From: Ideonella aquatica
GTDB taxonomy: Bacteria; Pseudomonadota; Gammaproteobacteria; Burkholderiales; Burkholderiaceae_C
Direction: 5' to 3'
DNA length: 64,000 bases
Assembly (NCBI RefSeq): GCF_018069755.1
Contig: NZ_JAGQDE010000013.1
Span: 1-64,000, forward strand
This document shows, in pieces, positions 1 to 16,039 of this stretch. How positions within the stretch are numbered: the first letter of the stretch is position 1; every line of letters begins with the position of its first letter. The notes beneath the pieces were generated by a model. The model saw nothing but the letters and a program-made list of their open reading frames with translations. It did not search any database and was not told where the DNA came from. A program made the translations under genes and the position numbers.

Positions 1-489
1 GTCAAATCAACGCCCGTGGCATGCGCCGCGGTTTCCTCCCTCGAGGCTTGTGCGACACCTGCCCTCAGGTCAGCATCGACTCGATGCGCCGCCGCATGCG
101 CGGGCAGGTATCCCACAACCCTAAACAGAAGCGGCCACCGAGCCTATCGGCAAGACCCGACCGCACGCATCCGCCCAGATGCTTTGCTAGGTCAGCTCTC
201 TCAGGGCGCCATGTGGCGGTACCTGTCAGGTACCGACCCATGATAGACGGTCGCCGATGTGGATTTCGCTACCGGGAGGCGGGAGTAATAGCGCAGTCTG
301 CGGATAACCGAGACCAAGGCTATTGCCGCCGTGCAGAAATTCAGATCGGGATCATAGCCTCTAGTAAGCGCGCGCGTCCTGTGAGCATCGTGGTGGCAAA
401 ATGCCAGCATCGCCCGTTACCGAAGCTGTGCAGAATTCCGTCCGCACAGAAGAATGGACAAATAGTAAATATCTACATGGGGGGATGCG
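1..489. other. left flank without a supportable gene
   Basis: I see no reading frame here with convincing protein-like composition or a ribosome binding site. The overlapping open frames on both strands are rich in Arg, Ser and Pro and look like non-coding read-through. Composition is mixed and less GC-rich than the chromosome after 8.2 kb. The only clear structure is a palindrome at 217-235. The last ~50 bases are the leader of the nuclease gene that follows. Confidence 0.5.
217..235. promoter_or_regulatory. perfect 9-bp inverted repeat, operator-like
   Basis: CGGTACCTG and CAGGTACCG are exact inverted copies separated by one T. The short spacing suits a dimeric DNA-binding protein better than a terminator, and no T-tract follows. 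It lies about 250 bases upstream of the nuclease-like gene at 490. No regulator gene is adjacent, so the ligand protein is unknown. Confidence 0.3.
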
Positions 490-1290
490 TTGAAATCTGA
501 TGACTTAGCCCAACAAGCGCTGACGCAGCTAGGTTTCAGCGTACAAAAACTGCCTGAATCCGCGGAATGCGGCAAGAAGATGCCGGACTTTCTCGTTAGG
601 CGTGGTGTCGCAAGCGCTTTGGTGGAAGCCAAGCTCAAGGTCGACGATTCTGAAAAGGCCAGCATGCGGGAGAGAGCCTTGGATTCCGGCGAAGTCTACG
701 TCTCCGAACACGTACTCGGTCGAGACGAGACCCTCTCGGGCATTGTACGAAATGGCGCGAATCAGTTGAAGGCCGACGCCGGAGTCGACGCTGAATTCAA
801 GGTCCTTTTCGTCCTGATGGATTGCATCAATGCTTATGTTGTAAGTGAGCAGCTTGTCGATACGCTCTACGGTAGAACGAGCGTCTTCGAATACGGCAAA
901 CCACCTCAACTCAAGCATTGCTACTTCTACAGGAACAGCGATTTCTATAGAAGACAGGAGACCGATGCCGCAATCGTCGGACTTGTGCAACCGTACGACG
1001 TCATAAAGATACTGAGGATCTGCCTAAATCCTTTTTCGCCACGCTATCTGAAGCTCAAGACATCCGAGTTCCTGGTGCCATTTAACAAAGCGGTGTTGGA
1101 CCCAATCGAAGAAGAAGAAGCCGGTCGGGCTTATATCCCCGACGCTAAGGTTGAACGAAAGGAACAGGAGTTTACGCAGGCTTTTCCGCTCTACGATCCA
1201 GTTCTTCACCATCTGGCCGAAAAATACAAAACAGCGCCGCTTGTACGTGCCGACTTCAACGCGTCGGAGTTTGCCATTAGGTCACGGTAA
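490..1290 (+). CDS. PD-(D/E)XK nuclease-fold protein, putative defence nuclease
   Basis: A 266-residue protein with a strong match to the PD-(D/E)XK nuclease active site near its N-terminus: P32-D33, a short beta-hairpin-like stretch, then E46-A47-K48 in a hydrophobic strand (VEAKLK). Known families with this core are restriction, Holliday-junction or Card1/Can-type nucleases; which one this resembles is not evident. The C-terminal ~200 residues are not recognised. The start is a TTG, chosen because a run of six G (479-484) sits 5 bases upstream and the nearby ATG at 485 is closed at once by a stop. It stands alone, with no methyltransferase or helicase beside it, in a lower-GC block with two other conflict-type operons, so a role in nucleic-acid defence is an inference. 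Confidence 0.6.
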   Translation: MKSDDLAQQALTQLGFSVQKLPESAECGKKMPDFLVRRGVASALVEAKLKVDDSEKASMRERALDSGEVYVSEHVLGRDETLSGIVRNGANQLKADAGVDAEFKVLFVLMDCINAYVVSEQLVDTLYGRTSVFEYGKPPQLKHCYFYRNSDFYRRQETDAAIVGLVQPYDVIKILRICLNPFSPRYLKLKTSEFLVPFNKAVLDPIEEEEAGRAYIPDAKVERKEQEFTQAFPLYDPVLHHLAEKYKTAPLVRADFNASEFAIRSR

Positions 1291-1567
1291 CTTCGTCGGA
1301 TGCTGCTTCAACCCGCCAAGCAGTCTTTGCAACCGACCGCTCTTGGCCGACCGCCCACAGCCATGAACGTCAGCTTCCTAATCATCCGCCTTGAATGCCA
1401 GCTGTCCTACGGCGAGTTCGGGGGAACTGCCGGCGGCGGACGACTCATCAGCGACATTCGCCTGGCTGGATTCGTCACCCAAGAGCCGACCATCGCGCGG
1501 AAACCAGCGAACTTGGCTCATGCAGACTCATTGCTTTGGCGCGCGCTTGTACGCCAGTCGCCAACGA

Positions 1568-2626
1568 TCATTCCCAGACGGGCCTAGCCGAGGCCGGAGA
1601 GATACCACCGAACGACGCCAGCGCCATGCGTTGTTGGAGCCAACGCGAACCGTGGTACACAACGAGATATGACATACATGCAGGATCGACGCGCGCATGG
1701 AGGCAGTAGATTGCAGCTTCGTGAAGCAGCATGTCATTAATGGCGTCGAGAGGCACCCAACCGTCGCGACGTGCATTGACTTTTGAATACCAGCGACCTG
1801 CATATTCCTCGTCGCTTTCGAGACCATGGAGAACTGCGCTCCAAAGGCTGATAATCGCCTCCCATGGGTAGATCTGCGCCGCTTCGCCCACTTCTCGAAC
1901 TCTGCGATCGAACTCACGCCTGACCAGAAGTCCGGGATCAGTGCCGGACTTAAGATGTCGCCACGCCACCGCGAGCAGCGGCCCTATCGACGGTGAATCC
2001 GAGACATCGGCGAGACGGCGCTCCAACTCTCGTTCAGATTTGTGGCTGCCATCAAGTATTCGCGAGGGCGCAGTCCTGACAAAATGAAGCAGCGCGTCGA
2101 GCCTCATTCCGGGCTCCGGGAGAATGACTGTACGGTAGCCGCGCCTTTCGGCACACTTTGCCATGTCATGGCACATCCGAGAGTGCGCGGATGTGTCAGC
2201 AGGACGATCTAGTTGGTGCATCAAGCTGACGACTAGGAGATTGGAAGAGCGTCCATTTCCTCCACCACTAAAAATCCGGCGCAGAAGAGTGTTCGGTTGC
2301 AGTTTATCTGCCAAGGCGCCGAGCGCTCCTACATAGCAGGTCAAGGCGAAGTCGGCGTCCTCCTGTCTGTAAACCGTCGACAGCCTTCTCTCCACGAGGC
2401 CGTCGAGGGTCGTCGCGTAGACCTTCATGGAAGTGGCTCTTAGCCAGCGAATAATTGCTTCGAACAACACGCCTTCTGAAGTTGCGGGAATCACGAAGCA
2501 CGAACGAGCCTGCACTTCCGAGGTGAGCGCAGCCTGCAGGCTCCGGGTTGCCTGTTCACACGCTGCATCCTCCAACTCAGCCCGGAGCTTGCCGAAATAG
2601 TGCCAATAGATCTCGGGCTCTAACAT
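1568..2626 (-). CDS. unrecognised partner protein of the vWA-TIR gene
   Basis: A 352-residue protein of unknown family. No signal peptide, membrane segment or nucleotide-binding loop is visible. It appears soluble and mostly helical, with a short Gly-rich stretch (SGGGNGR, around residue 118). It starts 30 bases downstream of the stop of the vWA-TIR gene on the same strand, so the two are probably one operon. By analogy with TIR NADase and vWA conflict systems, the partner would be expected to sense the trigger or regulate the effector. That is position-based inference only; the sequence itself shows no function. Confidence 0.6.
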   Translation of the reverse strand: MLEPEIYWHYFGKLRAELEDAACEQATRSLQAALTSEVQARSCFVIPATSEGVLFEAIIRWLRATSMKVYATTLDGLVERRLSTVYRQEDADFALTCYVGALGALADKLQPNTLLRRIFSGGGNGRSSNLLVVSLMHQLDRPADTSAHSRMCHDMAKCAERRGYRTVILPEPGMRLDALLHFVRTAPSRILDGSHKSERELERRLADVSDSPSIGPLLAVAWRHLKSGTDPGLLVRREFDRRVREVGEAAQIYPWEAIISLWSAVLHGLESDEEYAGRWYSKVNARRDGWVPLDAINDMLLHEAAIYCLHARVDPACMSYLVVYHGSRWLQQRMALASFGGISPASARPVWE

Positions 2627-2656
2627 ACTCAGTCAGTTCTCTACTGATCCTGAAAG

Positions 2657-3955
2657 CTATCGCCGCTTTTTGAGCGACTGGAGCGTATTCCGAATGCCAG
2701 CCGCCACTTCAGCGAACGCTGATGCTCTGCTCCTCCATTTCGTAATCGGACGTGCGTCAGTAGGAAGTGCGGCAAGCTTGCTGAATGGCGTACCGTGCCA
2801 ATCGACTGGTTTGAGAATAATCGGCACGACGATCGCCTCGTTTGCTTCATGCCGTTCCAACGCGCGCTTGAGCTCGATGTCGTAGCAGTAGTCGGAATGC
2901 AAGAAGTCCTCGCTAATGAGTAGGAGGATCAGATCGGCCGAATTGAGATTGGCGTCAATCGCACCCTTCCATTCCGCTCCAGCGGTGATCTTTCGATCGT
3001 TCCAGATGTCGACGAGGCCCTGCCGCCGAAGAGCGGAAAGATGCTTCTCGAGCTGAACACGGAAATCTTCATCCTCGTGTGCATAGGAAATGAAGACCTG
3101 GAATGACTCGTCCGCCGCGGGAGATGTCGGCGTTGAGACAGGCGTGATGACTGCGTTCATGAACTCAGTGAGCACATCGGATCGATTGATCTGCGCGAAT
3201 AGCCGCGCTGGGCGATCGATCGTCCAGCCGAATTCCAATAGGTAGTCGGTAAATGCCGATTCGGCAGCAACTTGTGAGGCACAGTCGAACATTAACTTCG
3301 CGCCATCCGGCCAGTGAGGATCAGGGCGGTCATACAGGCGCCGCGGCTCCGTGATATCTTCGTCAGTGACGTAACAGGAGACCACTATGTGGTGCCGGCC
3401 CTTTATGGAGGCGGCCAAGGCATCCACGGCCGCTTCCGTTCCCCGGTTTGGCATACCATCGGACAGCAGAAACAGAACACTAGTCTCATGGAAGGCGTCA
3501 CTCCTGAGTTCGGCGTCGAACCTGTCTCTGACCATTTCCAGCGCTTCTCGCATGGGCGTGCTGCCCAGCATATCAACGGCGAGATTGGTAAGGTGGGCCT
3601 CGTATCGCCCCCAGTTGTCGGCAACCTCAACAATCGAGACAAGCGATGTGTTCATTCCCGGTAGGTCAAAGAGATCGCGAACGGTTGGCCCTTGACGCCC
3701 GAGTAGCACGGAGAGGGGATTGCCAAAGCCGAAACCGTATGCAAACAGCCGAACTAGCGATCCACCCTCGTGGGGCGGCCTACGCGAAAGCTCCCTTCCG
3801 CGTTCCGCCAGCTTCCTGAGCGAGTCACGAAAAGCCTCCAAGCGGTTGAGACTTGGACCAGAAGGGTTCTGGATCGCGCTCGTCATCGAGCCGGATACGT
3901 CGATCGCCAAGCCAACAAGCATCGGGGGAGCGGAAGGGGCGCGTTCGCTTCGCAT
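2657..3955 (-). CDS. vWA-TIR fusion protein, putative NAD-cleaving defence effector
   Basis: A 432-residue two-domain protein. Residues ~12-225 are a von Willebrand factor A domain with an apparently intact metal-binding (MIDAS) site: DVSGS at 19-23, the GSTPM loop supplying the Thr, and LLSDG. Residues ~285-432 are a bacterial TIR domain: it opens FQVFISYAHEDEDF and has the SDYCYDIE segment with a candidate catalytic Glu at 361, then RALERHE and VVPIILKPVDW. Bacterial TIR domains of this kind commonly hydrolyse NAD+ or make signalling derivatives during phage defence; vWA domains mediate metal-dependent protein contacts. The usual MoxR ATPase partner is absent; the only neighbour is the unknown gene downstream. 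The domain calls are firm; the defence role is inferred from family and context. Confidence 0.85.
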   Translation of the reverse strand: MRSERAPSAPPMLVGLAIDVSGSMTSAIQNPSGPSLNRLEAFRDSLRKLAERGRELSRRPPHEGGSLVRLFAYGFGFGNPLSVLLGRQGPTVRDLFDLPGMNTSLVSIVEVADNWGRYEAHLTNLAVDMLGSTPMREALEMVRDRFDAELRSDAFHETSVLFLLSDGMPNRGTEAAVDALAASIKGRHHIVVSCYVTDEDITEPRRLYDRPDPHWPDGAKLMFDCASQVAAESAFTDYLLEFGWTIDRPARLFAQINRSDVLTEFMNAVITPVSTPTSPAADESFQVFISYAHEDEDFRVQLEKHLSALRRQGLVDIWNDRKITAGAEWKGAIDANLNSADLILLLISEDFLHSDYCYDIELKRALERHEANEAIVVPIILKPVDWHGTPFSKLAALPTDARPITKWRSRASAFAEVAAGIRNTLQSLKKRR

Positions 3956-4189
3956 TGATTTATGTCGTCAGGAGCAGGATATCAATTGCGGGGGCGCCTA
4001 CAGGTTGCTGATATGCAGGCGTGCTCTCAGGATAAGGTCTCCCTGAAATTCGAGCAACAACAGGTGCCGGTGGCGAGCGACCGTTGATGGCCGGATGCTT
4101 CCAGACGCGCTTGCTGCAATCAGCCGCCCTTCAAAACTTACGGAGCCGCGTGCGTGGCAGAGCCGCGCCGTGCCATCCGGCCGCCACCG

Positions 4190-4520
4190 ACAGCCACCTG
4201 GCACGCGAACGAGGGCCCGGACTCGGCCAGGAACGGCCGCCGGTGAAAGCCAGCTACAGAGGCAGCCGATCAGGTGCGACCGCGGCACCAACTCGGCCAG
4301 CCGCTTCATGAACTCCAGCAGGTTCATCATCAGATGCGTCGTGCCTTCGAGCAAAGTCGTATTGAACTTCAGCTCCACCTGGCCGGCGGCGTCGAGCTAT
4401 CCCCCCGTTAGTTCGACAGCGCCGGCCGGGTGCTGTAGCGGCACAACTGCCCCAGCCGCTTGCCGTCGTTCGCCTCGACCCGCACTGCTGCGTGTAGGCT
4501 GAAGCCGTCGATGTCGGGAA
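4190..4520 (-). pseudogene. IS91-family (Y2 type) transposase fragment, frameshifted
   Basis: Read on the minus strand, about 4518-4415 encodes GFSLHAAVRVEANDGKR then LGQLCRYSTRPALSN, and about 4390-4250 encodes VELKFNTTLLEGTTHLMM then NLLEFMKRLAELVPR. A shifted frame then gives PGRVRALVRVPGG. These match the order of conserved C-terminal blocks I know from IS91/IS801-like Y2 transposases (CRYxTRPAL, DGTTH, LEFMxRLAALVPRP, FHGVLAPNAKLR). At least one stop and two frame changes separate the blocks, and the catalytic N-terminal half is missing. It lies between two probable defence operons. The remaining bases of the 3956-4595 gap hold nothing else I can support. Confidence 0.6.
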
Positions 4521-4595
4521 AGGGGCCGGAGTCTTTAAGCGGGCAATGACCGCAATGCAGACCGCCTTACTGCCGGGCCCACGGCGGCTGTGTCG

Positions 4596-6503
4596 TCACA
4601 AGATGGCGAGCGACCTGCTGTTCTCTGAGAACTGCCGGGCAACGACGTATGCATCGTTTTCGAGCTTGGGGGAAATCTGCGAAGTCGAGAAAATCAACTG
4701 ATAATCACATTCGAAGCGACTGCATTCTTCCACAATAATCTCTTGGAGGCGATAGGAGCGCTCAAGCTCCATCCCGCCGTCTTCAATGCCGTCGAGGATT
4801 AAGAGTCGAGGCAGTCGCATTTCTGGTATCCGTGTCGATGCGCTGAGCAGTGCGAGATGGAAAAGATGCCTCAGAACTACGGTTGAGCTCTCGGAAAATT
4901 GCGTTGAACCTTCCACGGAAACCATATTATCCGTGAAGCTGAATTGGATATTTCCTGCCCTGGAAAATTCCGCCTGTCTATTCAGGTCTTGTCGCAACAG
5001 TCTGCCGAGAGTTGATGCGACTTCTTCCTGCACCTTTTGTTTTCTAGTCTCTTGCGTGTAAAACAGTGACTCAATAGAAGAATCAAGCTCGTTAATGCGA
5101 TTTCCAAGCTCTTCCCGCTTCGCCTGAAGCTGACGGATGGCCTCTGCAAGGCGCTGATTTTCATAGAGCCCCTTAATCTCTTGCTCAAGTCCGCCGATTT
5201 TCCTAGCGGTCTCCTCAATGGCCGTTTCGATATCGGACGACCATGTAGTGCTGGACTCTGCGTATCTCTTCTCAAGGGACTTTAGGCGTTGCCGTAGCGC
5301 AGGGACTGCGTTGTGAAGACGCTGCAACTCCGTTTCGCGCTCTGCGATTAGTGCGGTCGACTCAGATAGCTGAATGCGTAGCTCGTTTCGCATCCTCAAA
5401 ACTTGCGCATCTGCGGCAACGGCATTGAGTGGACTCTTGCAAAGGCTGCAATTCGTGCTCTCCTTTTCGGGAGGCTGCACCTCTGAAAGGCAGCATGGGC
5501 AAAACGCAAATGCCAGCTTCCCAAAGTAATTTCTCGTGGTACTCGACTCGTCGAGTGTCCTTAATCGCAATTCAAGTTCTTCGACGAACTTCTTTGAGTC
5601 AGTGATATCGACCTCACCTCGTGAAATCTGGTCTTGCGCCTCGCTAAGCGCCTTCTTGGCGGCATCAAGTTGAGCGCGCAAGTTGATATCGCCAACGGCT
5701 TTCTTTATATCTGCGGAGACGGTACGCTCCTTGCGCAGACGCGCAAGCTCGGCGTTGGAGATGTCTCGCTCGCGCTCCAAGTTCAAAATCTCCTGCCCGA
5801 TGAGCTCGAAGCCGGTATTTTGCTCGGATTTGGCAAGCACTCTGAAGATGCTCTTTAATTCGGCATCAAGCGATTGCATCTGCTTTTCAAGCTCCCGCTT
5901 TTCGAGCTGAGCTACGTACAGCTTGTCATCGTAGACGCCGGTCAGATACGAACCAACGGTCTCGCGATTAAGTGCACTATCAAATGCATCAGTTCGGAAG
6001 ATTGGGCTGTGCAGGGACGGTTGGTCCGCATAAAGCACCCGGAGAAGCTGATGCAGTGTGATGTTCGACGCGCCGTCACCTTGGGCTTCAGACAAGTCCA
6101 TAGCTAGCAGAAGAGCTTGTGTAAAGCTCAGTTTTGTGCTGCTGCGACGAAAGCCAAAAATTTCCCAAGAGGTAATCGGGGCTTTATCCGCCTCTTCAAA
6201 TGAGCCCCAGTAGATATACAGCGGGTTAAGTGGCCTATTATTAACCGCGCGACGCACGGTGACTAATTTTCCGTTGAGGGCGACCTCTGCCGTCGACCAA
6301 TCACAGAGAAGCGCTTCTTGCTTCCACGGAATGTATTCTGCTCCTAGCGTGTAGGCGATAAAGTCAAGAATTGTCGTTTTACCGCTACTGTTGTGCCCGT
6401 GAATAATGTTTACGCCATTGTGAAACGTCGAGTTAAACACTACTCGATTGTCTTTATGGATGCACAGGCGACGCAGCGCTAGTGTAGGCTTAAGCAACGT
6501 CAT
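4596..6503 (-). CDS. ABC-3C-type Rad50/SMC-like ATPase with zinc hook
   Basis: A 635-residue ATPase. The Walker A motif GHNSSGKT is at residues 36-43 after an N-terminal strand typical of SbcC/Rad50/RecN-type ABC ATPases. A long coiled coil follows, interrupted in the middle by CPCC and CSLC cysteine pairs that look like a Rad50-type zinc hook. A second coiled coil then leads to a C-terminal lobe with a Walker B-like LLILDGIED. The start at 6503 (MTLLKPTLALRR) is preferred to the Met at 6560, because it overlaps the stop of the middle-component gene by 14 bases and begins directly with the ATPase strand. It is the last gene of a four-gene minus-strand operon. In ABC-3C systems this ATPase is thought to sense invading nucleic acid and license an effector. 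Confidence 0.8.
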   Translation of the reverse strand: MTLLKPTLALRRLCIHKDNRVVFNSTFHNGVNIIHGHNSSGKTTILDFIAYTLGAEYIPWKQEALLCDWSTAEVALNGKLVTVRRAVNNRPLNPLYIYWGSFEEADKAPITSWEIFGFRRSSTKLSFTQALLLAMDLSEAQGDGASNITLHQLLRVLYADQPSLHSPIFRTDAFDSALNRETVGSYLTGVYDDKLYVAQLEKRELEKQMQSLDAELKSIFRVLAKSEQNTGFELIGQEILNLERERDISNAELARLRKERTVSADIKKAVGDINLRAQLDAAKKALSEAQDQISRGEVDITDSKKFVEELELRLRTLDESSTTRNYFGKLAFAFCPCCLSEVQPPEKESTNCSLCKSPLNAVAADAQVLRMRNELRIQLSESTALIAERETELQRLHNAVPALRQRLKSLEKRYAESSTTWSSDIETAIEETARKIGGLEQEIKGLYENQRLAEAIRQLQAKREELGNRINELDSSIESLFYTQETRKQKVQEEVASTLGRLLRQDLNRQAEFSRAGNIQFSFTDNMVSVEGSTQFSESSTVVLRHLFHLALLSASTRIPEMRLPRLLILDGIEDGGMELERSYRLQEIIVEECSRFECDYQLIFSTSQISPKLENDAYVVARQFSENSRSLAIL

Positions 6504-6990
6504 AACGGTGTTCCATGAGGCCGGTCCGGTGTTTAAGCCCGTCAGTGCCAAGTAAATCAAGCTGGCCTAATTTATTCACCAGATAATCTACAAGTGTTTT
6601 GTTGCCAACAAGTGCGCCCGCCAGCGGTGCTTTAAGTTCGTCGGGAATCGCAAGGTCGGTGCGACGAACTAGACCGGACTCGAACTCATTCGACGTAATA
6701 AGCTGGGACGCCGCAAGCGTTTTAAACGCCGCAATCTGGATGTGCTCCATATCCCGGAACGCCTGATGCATGCTCACCGGTCCGTGATAATGGTTTGCTG
6801 AGGACTGAGCCAGGCGTCGCGCCTCTGAGTGTTCGCGCGGCAGCCGAATGCGCTGTATTTCCGCTGGAAAGCACAAGAAGAAATCGAGAATGCGCAGTTT
6901 CGCAACCTCGATTACCTTTATGTGATTGGTAATGAGCAGCGACCGAAAAACGCAGTGGTATGCGTCATAAGCCGGGTGATAGACTAGCAT
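6490..6990 (-). CDS. ABC-3C middle component
   Basis: A 166-residue protein beginning MLVYHPAYDAYHCVFR, a start typical of the small middle components that bridge the ATPase and effector in ABC-three-component systems. The numbered subfamily cannot be fixed by eye. It is mixed alpha/beta with no membrane segment. I chose ATG 6990 because GAGGTG lies 6 bases upstream; the longer TTG start at 7011 would place this site inside the gene. The start overlaps the stop of the upstream effector gene (ATGCTAG) and its 3' end overlaps the ATPase start, so the three proteins are probably translationally coupled and made in fixed ratio. Confidence 0.65.
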   Translation of the reverse strand: MLVYHPAYDAYHCVFRSLLITNHIKVIEVAKLRILDFFLCFPAEIQRIRLPREHSEARRLAQSSANHYHGPVSMHQAFRDMEHIQIAAFKTLAASQLITSNEFESGLVRRTDLAIPDELKAPLAGALVGNKTLVDYLVNKLGQLDLLGTDGLKHRTGLMEHRYDVA

Positions 6991-7544
6991 TTGTCCCACC
7001 TCACATGACAATTGCCACCGAGATAAAACAGTAAGCCCAGAATGTCTGCTGGAGAAAGCATAAGATCATTATCGCCCAGCATGTCTGCTGCAGGTTTAAT
7101 GACCTTCTCGTTAATCAGTGCATCGACTTCTTCTCGGCTTTTCCCTGCTTCAATGGCTGGCGTGACGTTCAGCAAGAATGCTGAATAAAGCTGGCCGAGG
7201 ATAATCGTCAGAATATCCTGTGCTATGCCGGAAGTCTGCCACTTCATAATAATCTTAGTGGCTGCTTCCTTTAGCTTGGATGCTGCGCGGATTAAGTCTT
7301 GGCGGTCTGCCGCGGTGAGTTTGACATCTAAGCCTCGCACGTCTCCATCGGTATCAACAGAGCAGTAATGCTGAAGCTGTTCCGAAATTTGAGCGATGTA
7401 AGGTTGCCCCTCGCTAGCAGCGCGGAACTTCTCGTATAGCTTCGCCAATGGCGACGGAGAGGCGTAGACGTTGGTTACCGTCTTCGTCTGATTGCCACCA
7501 ACAATATCGCCATCAGCTTTGTTGCCTGACTGCGAAGTGAACAT
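6984..7544 (-). CDS. ABC-3C effector-side component with N-terminal GDIVGGN motif
   Basis: A 186-residue protein. Residues 6-18 are SGNKADGDIVGGN, a motif that recurs in the small membrane protein encoded just upstream. A Thr/Val-rich linker follows, then a helical domain (residues ~30-186) likely to be one of the C-terminal domains that dock to the middle component in ABC-3C systems. No nuclease or protease motif is visible, so the killing activity, if any, is not identifiable here. Four bases separate it from the upstream gene, and its stop overlaps the start of the middle component. The ABC-3C assignment rests on gene order, sizes and the motif together. Confidence 0.6.
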   Translation of the reverse strand: MFTSQSGNKADGDIVGGNQTKTVTNVYASPSPLAKLYEKFRAASEGQPYIAQISEQLQHYCSVDTDGDVRGLDVKLTAADRQDLIRAASKLKEAATKIIMKWQTSGIAQDILTIILGQLYSAFLLNVTPAIEAGKSREEVDALINEKVIKPAADMLGDNDLMLSPADILGLLFYLGGNCHVRWDKC

Positions 7545-7548
7545 CGTT

Positions 7549-7740
7549 CTACTTCGCGTTCTTCTTCACACTGTCGCCGCCAATGATGTCTCCACCTGCC
7601 TTGTTGTTCTTTTGCGATGTAATGCGAACTGACGACTTCGAAGATTTACGGCGGTCAATGGTGAACTTAAATGCAATGCCCGCTGCGATTATTGCCGCAA
7701 TAATCGGCGCGGCCCATTTTCCGATGGCTACCCAGTCCAT
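7549..7740 (-). CDS. small single-pass membrane protein with a GDIIGGD motif
   Basis: A 63-residue protein, first gene of the operon. Residues 6-26 form one hydrophobic helix (IGKWAAPIIAAIIAAGIAF) followed by basic residues (RRKSSK), so the C-terminus should be cytoplasmic. Residues 42-55 read QKNNKAGGDIIGGD, nearly the same as the motif at the start of the next gene's product. The start is well supported: GGGGAGG lies 4 bases before the ATG. The likely role is a membrane anchor or pore that pairs with the effector component through the shared motif. That is inference; the sequence shows only the helix, the motif and the coupling. Confidence 0.7.
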   Translation of the reverse strand: MDWVAIGKWAAPIIAAIIAAGIAFKFTIDRRKSSKSSVRITSQKNNKAGGDIIGGDSVKKNAK

Positions 7741-8226
7741 TTGACCTCCCCGTCAGCGCCCCTACAAGTGGGCGCGTAAGAATGTAAGCGTTGGAGGATA
7801 CGAGAAGTCTTGCGCCGTTGCTAGTGGGCGCCGCCCGTATCCCAAAGTCCTCCGTCCGTTTGGGCTGCGCAGGCGTCCAGCCGGCGTAGCGACTGAGCCC
7901 CAGGCGCAGGCGCGGTCTTACCTGCTGGGGGAGCCAAACGCGCAAATGCGTAGACCGCGACCGAGGCCGGAGGCTAGTCTCGAACGGCGAGGGGCAGCTT
8001 AGGGTCGAGTCGAGTCTGCCGGCCTGATACGGACCGGCCATTCGCCCCGGGCAGGCAAGCTGGCAGCTCAGGTGACCGCTGTCCATCGCGTCGCTGTCAT
8101 CGACGGCATCGCCAGCCGTCTGGCTGACGGGCAGCTTGGTGGCGGTCAGCGTGACTTCGCCGGAACCGAACCATTGACTGCTGACGCTGCGAAGCAGCCC
8201 CCCCACCTCAGCCGACCACCTCCCCC
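7741..8226. other. gap at the accessory-block boundary
   Basis: About 490 bases between the ABC-3C operon and the dctM stop. It contains the operon's ribosome binding site and, just upstream of it, a short inverted repeat (GCGCCC at 7756-7761 with GGGCGC at 7770-7775). A minus-strand frame of protein-like composition (roughly 8050-8200) has no start or family I recognise and may be the remains of a gene cut by the insertion. I see no tRNA gene or clear attachment-site repeat here. The promoter of the minus-strand operon must lie in this stretch, but no -35/-10 pair is convincing. Confidence 0.5.
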
Positions 8227-10287
8227 TCACCTCCCGTACAACACCTCCGGCAACCACAACCCAATCCCCGGGAACAGGTACAGCAGCACGATGGCCACCA
8301 CCTGGATGCCCATGAAGGGCAGCATGCCGGCGAAGATCTGGTTCAGGGTGACGTGGGGCGGGCTGACGCCCTTCAGGTAGAAGGCGGCCATGGCCACCGG
8401 GGGGCTGAGGAAGGCGGTCTGCAGGTTCAGCGCCACCAGCAGGCCGAAGAACAGCGGGTCGACGCCGAAGTTGTCCAGCAGCGGGATGAAGATGGGCATG
8501 AAGATCACGATGATCTCGGTCCACTCCAGCGGCCAGCCCAGCAGGAAGATGATCACCTGACTCAGCACCAGGAACTGGGTCTTGGTCAGGTTCATCGACA
8601 TCACCCACTGCTCCACCAGCTCCTGCCCGCCCAGCAGCGCAAACGCGGCCGAGAAGATGGCCGAGCCGACGAAGAGCCAGCACACCATGGCGCTGGTCTT
8701 GGCGGTCAGGAACACCGATTCCTTCAGCACGCCGAAGGTGAACTGCCGGTAGGCCACGGCCAGCAGGAAGCCGCCGAAAGCGCCCACCGCGGCAGCCTCG
8801 GTGGGGGTGGCCAGGCCGAAGACGATGGAGCCCAGCACGGCCAGGATCAGCACCAGCAGCGGGAAGAAGCTGCTGAGCAGCATCTTGAACACCTCCAGCC
8901 GTTGGAAGCTGAGCAGTGCGTACAGCGCCACCAGTGCCACAGCGCCCACGCCGGTGCCGATCCAGAAGCCCTGGGTGGCGGGGGTGCGTGCGCGTGGCGC
9001 ATCGGCTGCGGCCGCGCCGGCCGGGGTGGTCAGCGTGCCGCCGCTGGCGCTGGGGGGTTCACGCACGCCGCTGGTGGCGCCAGGGGGCTCGGCCAGGCCG
9101 CCGGGTGCGGCGCCCGGGGGTTCCTGCAGACCACCGCCGGCCGATCCGGGCGGCTCCTGCAGGCCACCACCCGCGGCGCCAGGGGGCTCCTGCAGGCCGC
9201 CGCTGCTGCCAGGGGGTTCTTGCAGTCCACCAGCGGCCGCCGGCTCGCGCAGGCTGGATGACGCGCCGGGCGGCTCGGCCACGCCGCCGCTCTGAACCAC
9301 GGCTGGCGCATTGGCATCCACGCTGGCGCTGGTGTTCAGGTGCCAGGCCAGGCCGGTGGCCGCCGCAAACACCAGCGCGGGCAGCAGCGCCACCAGCAGC
9401 TCGCGCAGCAGCAGGCCGATGGGCACGTTGGCATTGCGCGGGCCGGCCAGCGCGCGCAGCAGCGACGGCAGCGCCAGCGGGCTGAAGGCGCGGGCCAGGT
9501 CTTCGCTCAGCGGGGGCAGCGGCACCAGGCGCTCGGCGGCGCTCAACGGCGGCATCAGCGCGGGCTTCAACTTGGCCAGGATCACCACGTAGACGATGTA
9601 CAGGCCGGCCAGCATCAGGCCGGGGAAGAAGGCGCCGGCATACAGCTGCACCACCGACACCCCCGCGGTGGCGCCGTAGACGATCAGCATCACCGACGGC
9701 GGGATCAGGATGCCCAGGCAGCCGCCGGCGGTGATGGCGCCGGCCGACACGCGCACGTCGTAGCCGCCGCGCAGCATCTGCGGCAGCGCCAGCAGGCCCA
9801 TCAGCGTGACCACCGCGCCGACGATGCCGGTGGCGGTGGCAAACACCGCGCAGGTGAACAGCGTGGCCACGGCCAGCGAGCCGGGCAGGCGCGCCAGCGC
9901 CAGGTGCAGGCTGCGGAACAGGCGCTCGATCAGGTTGGCCCGCTCCACCAGGTAGCCCATGAAGACGAACAGCGGGATCGAGATGAGCACGTCGTTGCCC
10001 ATCACCGCAAAGGCGCGCTGCACCATCAGGTCCAGCGTCTGCGTCACCGCGCCGCCCACCGTCTGTCCGCCCGAGTGGTAGGCGAAGAAGGCGAACAGCA
10101 TGCCCATGCCCATCAGCGTGAACGCGGTGGGAAAGCCCAGCATGATGGCCACCACCACCAGCGCCAGCATCAGCAATCCGTAGTGGCCGTTGGTGAGCTG
10201 ATCGGTGCTCAGCACCATCGCCGCCGTGCCGGCCAGGATCAGCCCCATCAGCGTGAAGCCGAACCACAGTTCCTTGCGCAGTGTCAT
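8227..10287 (-). CDS. dctM: TRAP transporter large permease DctM with repeat insertion
   Basis: The large membrane subunit of a tripartite ATP-independent periplasmic transporter, the Na+-coupled uptake channel for an organic acid. The N-terminal ~245 residues and the C-terminal ~210 residues are standard DctM, with many membrane helices and a late ATPTEAAAVGAFGG motif. The protein is 686 residues instead of the usual ~430. The extra ~200 residues between the halves include two more predicted helices and, between them, a Gly/Pro repeat (roughly residues 333-415). It starts MTLRKELWF and overlaps the dctQ stop by four bases (ATGA). The core identity is sure; the substrate is not visible from this subunit. 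Confidence 0.9.
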   Translation of the reverse strand: MTLRKELWFGFTLMGLILAGTAAMVLSTDQLTNGHYGLLMLALVVVAIMLGFPTAFTLMGMGMLFAFFAYHSGGQTVGGAVTQTLDLMVQRAFAVMGNDVLISIPLFVFMGYLVERANLIERLFRSLHLALARLPGSLAVATLFTCAVFATATGIVGAVVTLMGLLALPQMLRGGYDVRVSAGAITAGGCLGILIPPSVMLIVYGATAGVSVVQLYAGAFFPGLMLAGLYIVYVVILAKLKPALMPPLSAAERLVPLPPLSEDLARAFSPLALPSLLRALAGPRNANVPIGLLLRELLVALLPALVFAAATGLAWHLNTSASVDANAPAVVQSGGVAEPPGASSSLREPAAAGGLQEPPGSSGGLQEPPGAAGGGLQEPPGSAGGGLQEPPGAAPGGLAEPPGATSGVREPPSASGGTLTTPAGAAAADAPRARTPATQGFWIGTGVGAVALVALYALLSFQRLEVFKMLLSSFFPLLVLILAVLGSIVFGLATPTEAAAVGAFGGFLLAVAYRQFTFGVLKESVFLTAKTSAMVCWLFVGSAIFSAAFALLGGQELVEQWVMSMNLTKTQFLVLSQVIIFLLGWPLEWTEIIVIFMPIFIPLLDNFGVDPLFFGLLVALNLQTAFLSPPVAMAAFYLKGVSPPHVTLNQIFAGMLPFMGIQVVAIVLLYLFPGIGLWLPEVLYGR
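9045..9290 (-). repeat. in-frame imperfect tandem repeat in dctM (LQEPPG units)
   Basis: About eight imperfect units of roughly 9-12 codons, each built on (L/V)(Q/R/A)EPPG followed by a short Gly/Ala/Ser run. The central four units are the most alike (LQEPPG with GSSGG, GAAGGG, GSAGGG and GAAPGG tails). The units keep the reading frame, so copy number could change without breaking the gene. The peptide is hydrophilic and flexible and should sit in a loop between two extra helices. Confidence 0.85.
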
Positions 10288-10919
10288 CGGGCCTGCTCCT
10301 GCGCGGCGGGGGCGGTGCCGGTGACAAAGCGGTCCAGCGCCTCGATGTCCTCGTCCTTCACGTGCACCATCTGCTTGAGCTTGTCGACGTCCACCTCTTC
10401 CACGTCCTGCTCACGCGATGGCCACTCGCCGGTCTTCAGGCAGGCCACGCAGCGCACGATCTCCACCACGCCCTGCAGCAGCAGCATCGCGCCGGCCAGC
10501 GGGATGATGAACTTGAACGGGTACAGCGGCAGCGGCGTGGCCGAAAAGGTCTTCTCGCGGATGGCCAGCGATTCATTCGCGTAGGTCCAGCCGGCCCAGG
10601 TGAGCGCCACGATGCCGGGCAGGAAGAACACCAGGTACAGCAGCAGGTCGATGCTGGCCTGGGTGCGCGGCTGGAAGAAGCCGTAGAGCACGTCGCCCCG
10701 CACATGGCCGGCCTTGGCCAGGGTGTAGGCGCCGGCCATCATGAACAGCGTGCCGTACAGCATGATCTGGCCGTTCAGCGCCCAGTCGTGCGGGTTGTTC
10801 AGCACGTAGCGGCTGAACACCTCATACGAGATGCCCAGCGTCAGCAGCACGATGGACCAGGCGAAGAACTGGCCGATCCAGGTGGACAGCCGGTCAACAG
10901 CAAGCAGCAGCTTCTGCAT
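10284..10919 (-). CDS. dctQ: TRAP transporter small permease DctQ
   Basis: A 211-residue small membrane subunit. It has four predicted helices with the family features EVFSRYVLN after helix two and WALNGQIMLYGT, followed by an acidic soluble tail (~40 residues, EEVDVDKLKQMVHVKDED). The ATG at 10919 (MQKLLLAVDRL) is preferred to the Val/Met further upstream because the extra 25 residues would run into the hairpin at 10957-10990. DctQ pairs with DctM in the inner membrane. Its stop overlaps the dctM start by four bases. Confidence 0.85.
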   Translation of the reverse strand: MQKLLLAVDRLSTWIGQFFAWSIVLLTLGISYEVFSRYVLNNPHDWALNGQIMLYGTLFMMAGAYTLAKAGHVRGDVLYGFFQPRTQASIDLLLYLVFFLPGIVALTWAGWTYANESLAIREKTFSATPLPLYPFKFIIPLAGAMLLLQGVVEIVRCVACLKTGEWPSREQDVEEVDVDKLKQMVHVKDEDIEALDRFVTGTAPAAQEQAR

Positions 10920-10956
10920 GGCGAGCGCGGCCAGCGGCCGGGTGAAATGCACACAC

Positions 10957-10990
10957 AAAAAAGCCGCGGGCGGCACGCGCCACCCGCGGA
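10957..10990 (-). terminator. intrinsic terminator or attenuator between dctP and dctQ
   Basis: On the minus strand a GC-rich hairpin (CCGCGGG at 10989-10983, CCCGCGG at 10970-10964) is followed directly by six T (10962-10957). It lies in the 90-base gap after dctP and before dctQM. This placement would let most transcripts stop after the binding protein, giving more DctP than membrane subunits, as is common in binding-protein operons. Confidence 0.7.
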
Positions 10991-11009
10991 CCACAGCCAG
11001 CGCAGGCGC

Positions 11010-12125
11010 TCAGCGGCGGCCGAAGTAGTGGTTGTAGGCCATCTTGAAGTCGACCATGTAGTCGTTCTGCCAGGGGATCACGCGTTGGGCGTAGGCCTTC
11101 TGGCTGTCGAGCACCTTCTTGAAGATCGGGTTCTCGCCGGACTTCTTGGCAATCACCTTGTCCCAGGCCTCCAGCTGGGCGCGCAGGATGGCGTCGGGCG
11201 TCTTGTAGAAGTTGACGCCAGCCTTCTTCAGCTCGGCGTAGTCCTTCGAGTTGCGCTCGATGGCCTTCCAGCTCATGTCGGCGCTGGCGGCTTCCACGGC
11301 CACGTCGATGGCCTTTTTCAGCTCGGCCGGCAGGCCGTTGTACTTCGGGCCGTTGAACAGGATTTCGAACTGCTCGCCGCTTTGGTGGAAGCTCTGCAGC
11401 ATGCAGTTCTTGGCCACGTCGGCAAAGCCCAGCACGCGGTCGGAGCTGGCGTTGTTGAACTCGGCCGCGTCGATCAGGCCGCGGTCCAGCGCCGGCACGA
11501 TCTCGCCACCGGGCAGCGGGTTCACCGCCGCGCCCAGCTCGGTGAACACGTCCACCGCCAGGCCCACGGTGCGGTACTTCAGGCCCTTCAAGTCTTCCAC
11601 CTTGGCGATGGGCTTCTTGAACCAGCCCAGCGGCTGGGTGGGCATGGGGCCGTAGACAAAGGACTTCACGTCCATGTTCAGGCTCTTGTAGATCTCCTGC
11701 AGCAGCGCCTCGCCGCCGCCGTAGTAGTGCCAGGCCAGCACCATGTTCGGGTCCATGCCAAAGGCCGGGCCCGATCCCCACAGCGCCAGCGCCGAGTTCT
11801 TGCCGTAGTGGTAGGCCAGCACGCCGTGGCCGCCGTCCAGCGTGCCCTTGGCCACCGCTTCCAGCAGCTGGAAGGCCGGCACCACCGCGCCGGCGGGCAG
11901 CACCTCGATCTTCAGCCGGTTGCCAGCGATGTCATTGACCTTCTTGGCAAAGTCGTTGGCGTACTCGTGGAAGATGTCCTTGGCCGGCCAGGTGCTCTGA
12001 AAGCGCAGGGTCACTGTCTGCGCGCGCGAGATGGCGGGCGCCGCCAGCGCCCCGGCACCCGCGGTGGCCGCGGCGGCAGTCTTCAGGAAACGGCGGCGCT
12101 TGGCCGGGGTGGGGTTCGATTCCAT
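11010..12125 (-). CDS. dctP: TRAP transporter solute-binding protein DctP/TakP type
   Basis: The periplasmic binding protein of the TRAP system, 371 residues. It begins with a twin-arginine type signal (AKRRRFLKTAAAATAGAGA, cleavage near ISRAQ), so it is probably exported folded. The mature part has TakP-like blocks YGPMPTQPLGWFKKP and KGLKYRTVGL and the conserved EFNNASSD region, which suggest a 2-oxo acid or related monocarboxylate ligand. The ATG at 12125 is used because it sits right before the signal peptide. It heads the dctPQM operon, with a hairpin after its stop. Confidence 0.85.
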   Translation of the reverse strand: MESNPTPAKRRRFLKTAAAATAGAGALAAPAISRAQTVTLRFQSTWPAKDIFHEYANDFAKKVNDIAGNRLKIEVLPAGAVVPAFQLLEAVAKGTLDGGHGVLAYHYGKNSALALWGSGPAFGMDPNMVLAWHYYGGGEALLQEIYKSLNMDVKSFVYGPMPTQPLGWFKKPIAKVEDLKGLKYRTVGLAVDVFTELGAAVNPLPGGEIVPALDRGLIDAAEFNNASSDRVLGFADVAKNCMLQSFHQSGEQFEILFNGPKYNGLPAELKKAIDVAVEAASADMSWKAIERNSKDYAELKKAGVNFYKTPDAILRAQLEAWDKVIAKKSGENPIFKKVLDSQKAYAQRVIPWQNDYMVDFKMAYNHYFGRR

Positions 12126-12172
12126 GCTGTCTCCAGGGGGTTGGACGGCACTGCGATGTGCCGTGGTTTGCG

Positions 12173-12190
12173 ACATCAAGCACCTGATGT
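12173..12190. promoter_or_regulatory. inverted repeat upstream of dctP
   Basis: ACATCA and TGATGT form exact inverted arms around a six-base spacer, 48 bases upstream of the dctP start. The size and position fit an operator for the TRAP operon. Which regulator binds is unknown; the GntR at 13412 is a candidate only by distance. Confidence 0.3.
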
Positions 12191-12294
12191 TCTGGGAAGC
12201 CGCAAATCAGACTCAACTCGTAGATACCCCGGAGGGAACGGGGGACCGACCCGTAGACGCGCGCGACACATTGACGCAGCCGCCGGCCAGCCGA

Positions 12295-13308
12295 TCAGGG
12301 CTCGACCGGCTCCAGCAGCAGCGCCTGAATGCCCTCTTCCGGGCGGTAACCCCACGCCAGGATCTGGCCAGCGTCGTTGATGTCGTAGGCATCGTAGAGC
12401 TGCCACAGGCCTTGCTGTTCGGGCACGATCAGGTCGTCCAGCCAGCGCATCTGGCCGTTCTCCCACAGGAAGGGGCCGTAGCGGCCGTTCAGGCCGCGCT
12501 GGCCGACGATCTGGCCGCGGTTGTTGATGCCGTGGGCGCCACTGGAGCCCGATGGTGAAGGGTCCAGGTCGATGCTCTGGCCGTTGCGCCACAGCATGGC
12601 GTGTTGAAGCGCTTGGCGCGGCCCGGCGCCGCCCACCACGTCGCCGGCATCGTTCAGGTCCTCGGCCTGGCCGAACAGCCCGCGGCCCAGCCGGTGCACG
12701 CGCCCGTGGTGCCACATCACCGGCAGAACGGCGTCGCTGGCCAGGCGCGACAGGCCCACCGCCACGCCGCGCTGGTTCAGCGCCCTCGGGTAGCTGCTCA
12801 CGGCCTGACGCAGGTGCGGCAACACCTGCGCCACGCCCTGGTGGTAGAGCACGGCCGTGCTGCTGTCGAACGCGGGGTCGATCCACACGGCCAGCACGTC
12901 GCCGTGGCTGTTGATCGCCTGGGCCGCGCCGCCGAGGCCTTCGGGCACAGGCAGCAGTTGCATGGCCCCGTGCTGGTCAACGAAGGGCAGGTCGCGGCCG
13001 TCCAGCCGGATCTGACCCACCACCACGCCGTGGTCGTTCAGGCCCCGGGCTTCGCTGAATTCATCGGCCAGGCCGGCGTGGCGCGCCAAGTCGATGCGGC
13101 GGCCAGCCTTGTACAGCACTGCACGCCACTCGTCGCCTCGGGCGAGCCACAGCGCCGCCACGTCGCCCCGCTCGTTCAGAGCACGGCCGATGCTGCCGCC
13201 GTGCGGGTTGTGTGGCCCCGGCAGGCTGATTCGGTAGCTGGTGGCTTGGGCCAGCCCGGCGAGCAGCAGGGCGCCGCAGGCGGCGAGCAGGCGGAGGGTG
13301 GGACGCAT
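12295..13308 (-). CDS. secreted HAF-repeat protein
   Basis: A 337-residue protein with a signal peptide (MRPTLRLLAACGALLLAGLAQA). It then has several repeats of the HAF type: a short strand, then (A/G)(L/I)N(E/D/N)xGxVVG, for example RALNERGDVA, GLNDHGVVVG, AINSHGDVLA, DLNDAGDVVG, GINNRGQIVG and DINDAGQILA. These are predicted to form a beta-propeller-like extracellular domain of unknown ligand. The start at 13308 was chosen because the signal peptide begins there. It lies between the TRAP operon and gntR with no evident functional link to either. Confidence 0.75.
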   Translation of the reverse strand: MRPTLRLLAACGALLLAGLAQATSYRISLPGPHNPHGGSIGRALNERGDVAALWLARGDEWRAVLYKAGRRIDLARHAGLADEFSEARGLNDHGVVVGQIRLDGRDLPFVDQHGAMQLLPVPEGLGGAAQAINSHGDVLAVWIDPAFDSSTAVLYHQGVAQVLPHLRQAVSSYPRALNQRGVAVGLSRLASDAVLPVMWHHGRVHRLGRGLFGQAEDLNDAGDVVGGAGPRQALQHAMLWRNGQSIDLDPSPSGSSGAHGINNRGQIVGQRGLNGRYGPFLWENGQMRWLDDLIVPEQQGLWQLYDAYDINDAGQILAWGYRPEEGIQALLLEPVEP

Positions 13309-13380
13309 GGAGGACTCCCTGAAAAGCGGCGAACAGCATGCGGGCACCCGGCCGCCGCTGCCATCCCCACGATCGCGGTC

Positions 13381-13393
13381 GATTGTTAACATG
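13381..13393. promoter_or_regulatory. candidate GntR operator upstream of gntR
   Basis: GATTGTTAACATG lies 19 bases before the gntR start. It shares ten of twelve bases with GATTGTTGACAA at 15980, which sits between the divergent acyl-CoA genes. The TTGT-n2-ACA core fits FadR-subfamily GntR operators, so autoregulation is likely. Confidence 0.45.
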
Positions 13394-13411
13394 CCTTGAA
13401 CCCGCCCCGCC

Positions 13412-14158
13412 ATGCCTGCCACCGCCACCGCCGCCGACCACGCCGCCTTTGATCACTGGGCGGCGCCGATCGAGTTCCGCCTGTTCGCCGATTCGGCGGG
13501 ACCGACGCTGACGGTCTCGGAGCAGATTGCCGCCAAGGTGGGCGACCGCATCGTCAGCGGCCGCCTGGCGCCGGGGGTGCGGCTGGGCGAGCAGGAACTG
13601 GCCGACGAATTTGCCACCAGCCGCGGGCCGGTGCGCGAGGCCATCCGCATCCTCGAGCGCGAGGGCTTGGCGGTGGTGCTGCCGCGCCGCGGCGCGGTGG
13701 TCACCAGCCTGTCGGCCGATGAGCTGCGCGAGCTGTTCGAGGTGCGCGCCGGGCTCTACGAGATCGTCGTGCGCAAGCTGGCCGAGCAGCGCCCGCCCGA
13801 GCTGCTGGCGGTGATGCGCGCCGGCGTGGCACGGCTGGCGGCGCTGGTCGACGACCCGGCCGGCGGCGACGCCTACGCCGAGACCGTGCACCGGCTGATG
13901 CTGGTCAGCGCGCGCTTTGCCGGCAATGAGCGGCTGCGGCGCCTGCTCACCGCGCTGTCGCTGCAGAGCCTGCGCTACAGCAAGCTGGGCCTGGCCTCGG
14001 CGGTGCGACGGCGCGAGTCGGTGCGGCTGTGGCAGCAGGCCACGCAGGCGCTGGCGCGCGGCGACGCTGAAGGCGTGATGCGCCTGGCGCGCGAGCGCGC
14101 CCAGGCCTCGGCCGAAGAGGCCACGCGCGTGATCGGCGACGCCGCCGTCCGCGGCTGA
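13412..14158 (+). CDS. GntR-family regulator, FadR/FCD type
   Basis: A 248-residue transcription factor. An N-terminal winged helix (about residues 32-95; GVRLGEQELADEFATSRGPVREAIRILEREGL) is followed by an all-helical FCD ligand domain with the expected metal-site residues (ELRELFEVRAGLYEIVV, and a late His region). FCD regulators sense small organic or acyl acids. Its stop abuts the stop of the acyl-CoA synthetase gene (TGATCA). Matching sites before this gene and at 15980 suggest that it controls itself and the acyl-CoA operons next door. Confidence 0.85.
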   Translation: MPATATAADHAAFDHWAAPIEFRLFADSAGPTLTVSEQIAAKVGDRIVSGRLAPGVRLGEQELADEFATSRGPVREAIRILEREGLAVVLPRRGAVVTSLSADELRELFEVRAGLYEIVVRKLAEQRPPELLAVMRAGVARLAALVDDPAGGDAYAETVHRLMLVSARFAGNERLRRLLTALSLQSLRYSKLGLASAVRRRESVRLWQQATQALARGDAEGVMRLARERAQASAEEATRVIGDAAVRG

Positions 14159-15712
14159 TCAGCCGAAGCGCTCGCGCAGCGGCGCCTTCATCACCTTGCC
14201 CGCGCCATTGCGTGGCAGCGCGCTGACGAAGACCAGCCGCCGCGGCTTCTTGTAGCCGGCGATGCGCTCGGCGCAAAAGGCCTGCAGCGCGGCGGCGTCG
14301 GCCTGCGCGCCGTCGCGCAGCACCACCGCGGCGGCCACCACCTCGCCCCATTCGGCATCGGGCAGGCCCAGCACGGCCGACTCCAGCACCGCGGGGTGGG
14401 CGGCCAGCGCGTCTTCCACCTCGCGGGCGTAGACATTGAAGCCACCGCTGATGATCATGTCCTTGTTGCGGCCGACGATGTGCAGGAAGCCGTGGCGGTC
14501 GAAGCGGCCCAGGTCGCCACTGTGGAACCAGCCGTCGCGCACCAGCTCGGCCATCAGCTCGGGGCGGCGCCACAGCTGCACCGCGGCGGCGCCCTCATGG
14601 GCCAGCGTGACCTCGCCCACCTCGCCTGGGGGCACCGGGCGGCCCTGCGGGTCGCGCAGCACGATGCGCACGTTGGCGCTGGGCCGGCCGCAGGAGCCGA
14701 TGGGCTCGTCGGCGCCGTCCTCGCTGTCGCCCAGGTGCTCGTGCGGGTACAGCACGGTCAGCGGCTGCACCGCCTCGGTCATGCCGTACTGCTGGCGCAG
14801 GATGGGGCCGAAGATGCGCAGCGCGCGGCGGATCAGCGCCACCGGCGTGGGCGCGGTGCCGTAGTGGATGCGCACCAGCGAGGACCAGTCGGCGCGCAGG
14901 CCCTGCTCGATCGCCTCGACCAGCCGGCTCATCATCGTGGGCACCAGCATCAGGTGGGTGATGCGGTGCTGCTCCACCGCGGCCAACAGCGAGCGCGGGT
15001 CGAAGCGGTCGAGGATGACATTGCGCGCGCCGCGCAGGAAACAGGGGAACAGGTACACGCCGGCGGCGTGGGTGAGTGGGCCCACGTGCAGCATCGCGTC
15101 GTCCACCGACAGGCCGTACTCCATGGCCATGAAGTGGTTGGTCAGCCGGGCCTGCAGGCGCTCCTGGGTGTAGGCCACGCCCTTGGGCTGGCCGGTGGTG
15201 CCGCTGGTGTAGGCGATGCGCACCAGGTGCTGCGGGCCGATCTCGATGGCCGGCGCCTGCTCGGGCGCGGCGGCGCAGGCGGCACGAAAGTCCAGCACGC
15301 CCGGGGCCGCCACATCCAGCCCCAGCACCAGGCGCAAGGCGGGCAGACGCTGGCCGGCGGCGGCCGTCAGCGCGCCGGCCAGCTCGGCGAACTGCGGTCC
15401 CAGCAGCACTGCGCTGGCCTGCGCGTCGGCCAGGATGTCCAGGTGCTCGGCCAGCGTGTGGCGGGCGTTCAGGGCCACACAGGTGAGGGCCGCCTTCTCG
15501 GCGCCGAACAGGCTGTCCAGGCTGTCGGGCGAGTTTTCCAGCAGCACGGCGAAGCGCTCGCCGGGCTGCAGGCCCAGCGCGATCAGTGCCTGCGCAAAGC
15601 GGTTGCTGCGCGCCTCCACCTCGCGGTGGCTGTAGCAGCGCTCGCCAAAAACCAGGGAGGGCCGCTCGCCGTGCTGGGCCGCCGCCCAGCTGATCAGGCG
15701 GCCGGCGATCAT
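14159..15712 (-). CDS. AMP-dependent acyl-CoA synthetase/ligase
   Basis: A 517-residue member of the ANL adenylating superfamily, which activates a carboxylic acid with ATP and joins it to CoA. Visible motifs are the P-loop YTSGTTGQPKGV, the QYGMTEA box, the GWFHSGDLGRFD hinge region and the catalytic C-terminal Lys in PRNGAGKVMKAPL. The substrate is not evident. Its ATG overlaps the stop of the biotin carrier gene by four bases (ATGA), so the two are coupled. With the carboxyltransferase across the divergent promoter this suggests activation and carboxylation of an unknown acyl group. Confidence 0.85.
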   Translation of the reverse strand: MIAGRLISWAAAQHGERPSLVFGERCYSHREVEARSNRFAQALIALGLQPGERFAVLLENSPDSLDSLFGAEKAALTCVALNARHTLAEHLDILADAQASAVLLGPQFAELAGALTAAAGQRLPALRLVLGLDVAAPGVLDFRAACAAAPEQAPAIEIGPQHLVRIAYTSGTTGQPKGVAYTQERLQARLTNHFMAMEYGLSVDDAMLHVGPLTHAAGVYLFPCFLRGARNVILDRFDPRSLLAAVEQHRITHLMLVPTMMSRLVEAIEQGLRADWSSLVRIHYGTAPTPVALIRRALRIFGPILRQQYGMTEAVQPLTVLYPHEHLGDSEDGADEPIGSCGRPSANVRIVLRDPQGRPVPPGEVGEVTLAHEGAAAVQLWRRPELMAELVRDGWFHSGDLGRFDRHGFLHIVGRNKDMIISGGFNVYAREVEDALAAHPAVLESAVLGLPDAEWGEVVAAAVVLRDGAQADAAALQAFCAERIAGYKKPRRLVFVSALPRNGAGKVMKAPLRERFG

Positions 15713-15927: not shown

Positions 15928-15979
15928 GGCGGGCTCCTGGAAAGCAAGCTGAAAGTCCAAGCATCCTAGGTGACATTAC

Positions 15980-15993
15980 GATTGTTGACAATC
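15980..15993. promoter_or_regulatory. palindromic GntR operator between divergent acyl-CoA operons
   Basis: GATTGTTGACAATC is a palindrome with arms GATTGT and ACAATC around TG. It sits mid-way in the 112-base gap between the biotin carrier gene (minus) and tctC (plus), where it could control both. It matches the site at 13381 upstream of gntR. Confidence 0.55.
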
Positions 15994-16039
15994 CAGGGGG
16001 TGGGTGCTTCAATCCTTGTCGCCACCCCGAGGAGACCGC

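Follow-up and report, generated by a model that had tools for sequence, protein, structure and literature searches.

A vWA-TIR gene and an orphan partner gene in a low-G+C island: a possible two-gene defence module

The gene pair and its surroundings

The window considered here is a stretch of 64,000 nucleotides from Ideonella aquatica, whose position 1 is also the first base of a contig (C4) of 146,938 bases. Close to this contig end, which lies 1.6 kb past the pair, two genes are arranged in tandem on the minus strand. The first (2657..3955) encodes a 432-residue protein, which we shall call vWA-TIR after its two domains, and the second, downstream of it (1568..2626), encodes a protein of 352 residues, the partner. 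The two open reading frames are separated by 30 bases and both are intact. A sequence-only reading of this DNA had placed two genes in the interval 1568-3955, where they are indeed found; their location on the minus strand is a detail that it did not contain. The G+C content of each gene is 0.573, with GC3 values of 0.644 for vWA-TIR and 0.606 for the partner, and the codon-position profiles of the two match, as does their G+C. Between positions 1200 and 4700 there are two promoter-like sites (1.3 in shuffled sequences) and two terminator-like sites (2.9 in shuffles). No RNA family was found in positions 1-8300, and no repeat in that region could be attributed to the pair.

The composition of this end of the contig is distinctive. 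Taken in 1-kb steps, G+C is 51-59% over positions 1-8000 as against 64-74% over positions 8001-16000, and GC3 is 0.535-0.644 in six island genes as against 0.915-0.962 in ten genes of the flanking genome. We read this stretch of some 7 kb, low in G+C and with a codon usage foreign to the genome, as an acquired island that holds the pair. Upstream of the pair, in the same island and on the same strand, is an ABC-3C/Lamassu-like operon (4596-7544, or to 7740 with a small frame of 63 residues), in which an LmuB-like ATPase (PADLOC, E 2e-48), Middle Component 5 (MC5; Pfam, E 3e-46) and CTD9 (Pfam, E 6e-31) are recognised; ABC-3C belongs to the Lamassu defence superfamily according to PMC10586767. 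The interval between this operon and the pair (about 3956-4600, minus strand) is a broken stretch in several frames with a match to Y2_Tnp (E 0.085, below the cut-off), and is perhaps the remnant of an IS91-type transposase. Because this possible remnant lies just upstream of the pair, the island itself may be decaying.

On the downstream side the pair is bounded by a convergent gene on the plus strand (490-1290), just as it is bounded upstream by the ABC-3C operon. The product of this gene, 266 residues long, has no Pfam match. Its N-terminus resembles a PD-(D/E)XK nuclease by eye, which the tools did not confirm, and it has weak relatives on three Piscirickettsia plasmids (25.5% identity over 89% of the query). 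The contig end also shows two short matches, to Acidovorax and Hydrogenophaga plasmids, which together with the gene content would suggest a betaproteobacterial host. Separately, the gene at 8227-10287 (minus strand) appears by eye to encode a TRAP-type transporter-like protein with a low-complexity insert of LQEPPG-like repeats in the middle of the chain.

The vWA-TIR protein

The C-terminal part of the protein, approximately residues 287-421 (2693..3097, minus strand), is a TIR domain. It matches the Pfam models TIR_2 (E 4e-16, above the cut-off) and TIR, and its best PADLOC match is ThsB1 (E 2e-55), which covers the TIR domain only; among PDB entries it aligns with the TIR domains of Cat1, BtTir, AbTIR and Roq1. 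On these matches the identification as a TIR domain is firm. Alignments with related TIRs and with the PDB chains place Glu361 (codon 2873..2875, minus strand) where TIR NADases have their catalytic glutamate. Twenty-nine loci were fetched by similarity to the TIR domain, and in the 25 of these that could be aligned the Glu361 column contains glutamate 20 times, another residue twice and a gap twice, one locus not reaching it; each of the 16 strongest TIR relatives has glutamate at this position. Glu361 is also paired with glutamate in all five PDB alignments listed, namely those with Cat1, 7uxr (BtTir), two Roq1 chains and 7uwg, the last being entered in the PDB as 'Molecular chaperone Tir'. 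In the numbering of PMC10022894, the catalytic glutamates are E85 in ThsB and E208 in AbTir. Judged by these alignments, Glu361 is an intact catalytic-type glutamate of a predicted NADase. It should be noted that the TIR fold with a catalytic glutamate, by which TIR NADases are recognised, is seen here in sequence, Foldseek being only suggestive: the AlphaFold model of the protein (mean pLDDT 38.3) is too poor for use, and it returned BcThsB first (E 1.7e-3), with other TIRs scattered among unrelated folds and no match of any kind at E <=1e-3.

The N-terminal part, from about residue 10 to about residue 210 (3326..3928, minus strand; limits approximate), carries the motifs DVSGSM (residues 19-24), STPM (132-135) and SDGMPN (165-170), which make up a complete MIDAS set (D19/S21/S23, T133 and D166). 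Pfam VWA_2 and VWA match residues 114-208 below threshold, VWA_2 at E 0.0028 with the whole protein and at 8e-4 with residues 1-265, both under the curated cut-off. Two NCBIfam models, both presumably vWA-containing, match the region very weakly (E 0.032 and 0.18). No vWA chain was among the phmmer matches of this half to PDB sequences, nor was a vWA structure among the best 50 Foldseek matches of the poor model. Taking the complete MIDAS motifs together with the sub-threshold profile matches, the vWA assignment is most likely right. Two aspartates are named for the MIDAS in PMC7159879, and the metal-binding aspartates expected of the vWA proteins of MoxR-vWA ternary systems are present here as motif residues (D19 and D166, with S21, S23 and T133), the profiles remaining below threshold. 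The domain begins at about residue 10-12, which leaves too little space for an N-terminal helical extension. The description of this protein as a MIDAS-competent vWA domain fused to a TIR domain with an apparently intact catalytic glutamate is thus upheld: the MIDAS residues, the firm TIR match and Glu361 are all in place.

The partner protein

The partner had been described as belonging to no recognised family, and we come to the same view: Pfam, PADLOC, NCBIfam and PHROGs, searched at E up to 1, contain no family that matches it, and nothing among PDB sequences does so at E up to 10. A line for RskA_N on one fragment of the protein (E 0.44) is at the level of chance. SIR2, SLOG, macro and membrane features were not found (Pfam at E up to 1, and hydropathy), the best 19-residue hydropathy mean being 1.2, without any stretch typical of a membrane helix. 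The frame is unlikely to have arisen by chance. When its bases were shuffled 2000 times, as a control blind to codon structure, no shuffle retained a frame of at least 350 codons, and among the six reading frames the sense one scores highest in codon log-odds, if narrowly (0.097 vs 0.035). A structure search, which had been proposed as a check, was run on a single-sequence AlphaFold model of mean pLDDT 36.9; it gave no notable match (best E 0.63), and the model is too poor for use.

Distribution of the pair and its parts

Searches for the partner gave no credible relative in 399 genomes of the order, 398 of the phylum, 240 of the family and 16 of the genus (these sets overlap and each contains the genome of origin), so that within the genus it was not found in any of the 15 further genomes searched. 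Nor did a relative turn up among viral contigs, plasmids or phages, or when a single genome was taken for each of 84,980 species. Several candidates were set aside as chance. That in genome G389 (E 4.8e-5, partner residues 2-89) crosses two stops and involves the short helical end of a small unrelated gene; those in G749 and G541 (E 0.006) were read as antisense to larger genes; those in G826 and G828 (E 0.006 and 0.009) were dropped on score and length; and a match on a Rhodococcus plasmid (E 6) has no vWA or TIR gene among its 12 annotated neighbours.

For the vWA half, no credible relative was found in 300 genomes of the order, 239 of the phylum, viral contigs or plasmids, and a 101-residue core of the domain found none in the contigs of one genome per species (84,980). 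For the partner as for the vWA half, the contig and viral scans detect close relatives only, and distant ones may exist. Three places on Ensifer plasmids (E 0.7) lie under an acyl-CoA dehydrogenase, and two matches in the phylum genomes (both E 0.005) fall, in one case, inside an unrelated gene, by eye a sugar nucleotidyltransferase, and in the other antisense to other genes. The whole vWA-TIR protein has no match among phages.

The TIR half on its own is, by contrast, common. Relatives occur in 29 of 399 genomes of the order, its own included (at most four candidates were scored per genome), and on 47 of 72,556 plasmids, none of these last spanning 80% of the query. The vWA half gave no tblastn match at E 1e-3 at the 29 TIR loci, and two frames there flagged by a loose motif scan (L029 and L030) are not the TIR frames. 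In frames taken from the first start codon, the TIR domain lies within the first 55 residues in eight of the ten nearest relatives and later in two (L012 and L013). Pfam recognises DnaB_C in one of the ten, a response regulator in two, nSTAND4/AAA in one, TPR in one, a weak TFIIE_alpha in one and TIR alone in four; it finds a vWA domain in none of them. With TIR relatives that have no detected vWA, it therefore appears that the TIR module was moved by shuffling onto an unusual vWA protein.

The genome of origin itself has 12 TIR_2 matches above the cut-off, on nine contigs; any match at all is seen in only four of 14 control genomes. This genome is rich in TIR domains and may hold several TIR defence systems. 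In the stretches around the other 11 of its TIR_2 matches, neither the vWA half nor the partner was detected (phmmer at E up to 10, frames of at least 100 residues); a frame flagged there by the loose motif scan (L055) has no phmmer match. A survey for conserved co-occurrence, which the sequence-only reading had made a condition of its proposal, has thus yielded no second pair. Since the members of the pair are themselves missing from the data searched, evidence is lacking here and the proposal is not thereby refuted.

Function of the pair and alternative explanations

We favour the reading, at a probability of about 0.45, that the locus is a rare, horizontally acquired two-gene defence module with a TIR effector, in which the vWA domain and the partner control assembly of the TIR domain and cleavage of NAD+. 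TIR domains can act as NADase effectors that require oligomerisation (PMC13174449). In such a module, the metal site of the vWA domain would bind a protein or peptide ligand, and the partner would either sense infection or hold vWA-TIR inactive. Infection would then bring the TIR domains together, NAD+ would be cleaved, and the infected cell would stop growing or die, as in abortive defence. The TIR domain, the MIDAS set, Glu361, the tandem order on one strand, the foreign composition and the adjoining defence operon are all directly seen at the locus, and from these we infer joint action of the two genes, a phage trigger and depletion of NAD+ rather than production of a signal. Counting against the module are that the pair is a single example, that the vWA profile scores stay under the curated cut-offs with no vWA structure matched by sequence or among the Foldseek matches listed, that the contig end hides any genes beyond position 1, and that the island may be decaying.

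It has also been considered whether the pair exemplifies a MoxR-independent, two-component type of defence, in which a new family controls vWA-TIR and the metal site of the vWA switches on TIR assembly. This stronger claim is at present rather doubtful. The earlier statement that MoxR is lacking holds in that no MoxR gene adjoins the pair and no AAA_3 (MoxR-family) match lies on its contig, and the contig end leaves a gap in this test. The genome has six AAA_3 matches (three above the cut-off), on C9, C33, C26, C57, C58 and C14, hence none of the six on the 147 kb of C4. The strongest, on C9, adjoins what appears by eye to be a DUF58-type gene, and the C9 gene appears to be a housekeeping one. 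If the pair does work alone, a vWA domain would be able to gate a TIR enzyme without the usual MoxR ATPase; the role of vWA domains in conflict systems would become testable in a minimal setting, and an orphan family would gain a function.

An alternative is signalling of the Thoeris kind, in which vWA-TIR would be the sensor and make a cyclic ADP-ribose-type signal that activates the 352-residue protein as effector. That the best PADLOC match of the TIR domain is ThsB1 is consistent with this, as are the presence of two genes, as in ThsA-ThsB, and the finding that some ThsB proteins sense a phage capsid protein (PMC12578639). However, the ThsB1 match spans the TIR domain only, the partner shows none of the SIR2, SLOG, macro or membrane features expected of the effector, and there is no SIR2_2 match near the pair, the three in the genome being on other contigs (C33, C15 and C55). 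We consider this explanation unlikely.

Alternatively, the island might be a mosaic in which a rare but intact vWA-TIR gene has come by chance to lie next to an unrelated and possibly partly decayed orphan, with no joint function. Co-occurrence was not found and both parts are rare, and the possible transposase remnant at about 4000-4595 would fit a mosaic of this sort. Against it, the genes share a strand, are only 30 bases apart, match in G+C and codon-position profile, and have intact frames, all of which makes mere juxtaposition improbable. Somewhat less likely still is that vWA-TIR serves as the effector arm in a ternary system of the MoxR-vWA kind, the MoxR and the third component having been lost, acting from elsewhere in the genome or falling past the contig end: fusion of TIR to the vWA component is known in such systems (PMC7159879), AAA_3 matches exist on other contigs and the sequence stops 1.6 kb past the pair, but the contig has no AAA_3 match and the strongest one appears to be housekeeping, the pair is enclosed by the opposite-strand gene at 490-1290 and the ABC-3C operon, and the vWA domain, which starts at about residue 12, lacks the VMAP-type N-terminal helical extension.

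Comparison with known systems

The vWA-TIR architecture is not new, because TIR-vWA fusions have been described in MoxR-vWA ternary systems: according to Kaur et al. (PMC7159879), vWA proteins of these systems gained TIR domains on several occasions, in actinobacteria, cyanobacteria and deltaproteobacteria. TIR is likewise often involved in TERNS3 systems (PMC8195603), and vWA, MoxR and TIR genes occur together at loci of diversity-generating retroelements (PMC10907252). The fusion is thus already in print together with MoxR, and what differs here is the absence of a linked MoxR and the orphan partner. In the mostly open-access literature searched, no paper was found that uses the name vWA-TIR or TIR-vWA, nor one that treats von Willebrand factor and TIR domains together with anti-phage defence and NAD. 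The proposal of an undescribed defence system survives in part. The defence-type location and the partner in the same orientation support it; a conserved two-gene system was not found, and the fusion was already known from PMC7159879. An undescribed two-gene system is possible and unproven.

The pair resembles the MoxR-vWA ternary systems (VMAP, iSTAND, iSTAND2 and TERNS3) in combining a MIDAS-containing vWA with a C-terminal effector, TIR being among the effectors known from PMC7159879 and PMC8195603. It differs in that MoxR is absent from the contig and no known third component is recognised, the partner matching nothing in Pfam at E up to 1; from the VMAP type in particular it differs in having no N-terminal helical extension on the vWA. 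The likeness to Thoeris lies in a TIR of the ThsB profile (ThsB1) with its catalytic glutamate, E361, and in a two-gene layout like that of ThsA-ThsB; in contrast to Thoeris, the TIR domain sits behind a vWA, and the partner is not recognisable as a ThsA effector of the SIR2-SLOG, macro or membrane kind. Finally, the pair can be compared with TIR NADases that carry an auxiliary domain (TIR-STAND for example, with Swarozyc/DUF4062 as an analogue), with which it would share a TIR enzyme joined to a likely sensing or oligomerising domain; here, the auxiliary domain is an N-terminal vWA, and a second gene accompanies it.
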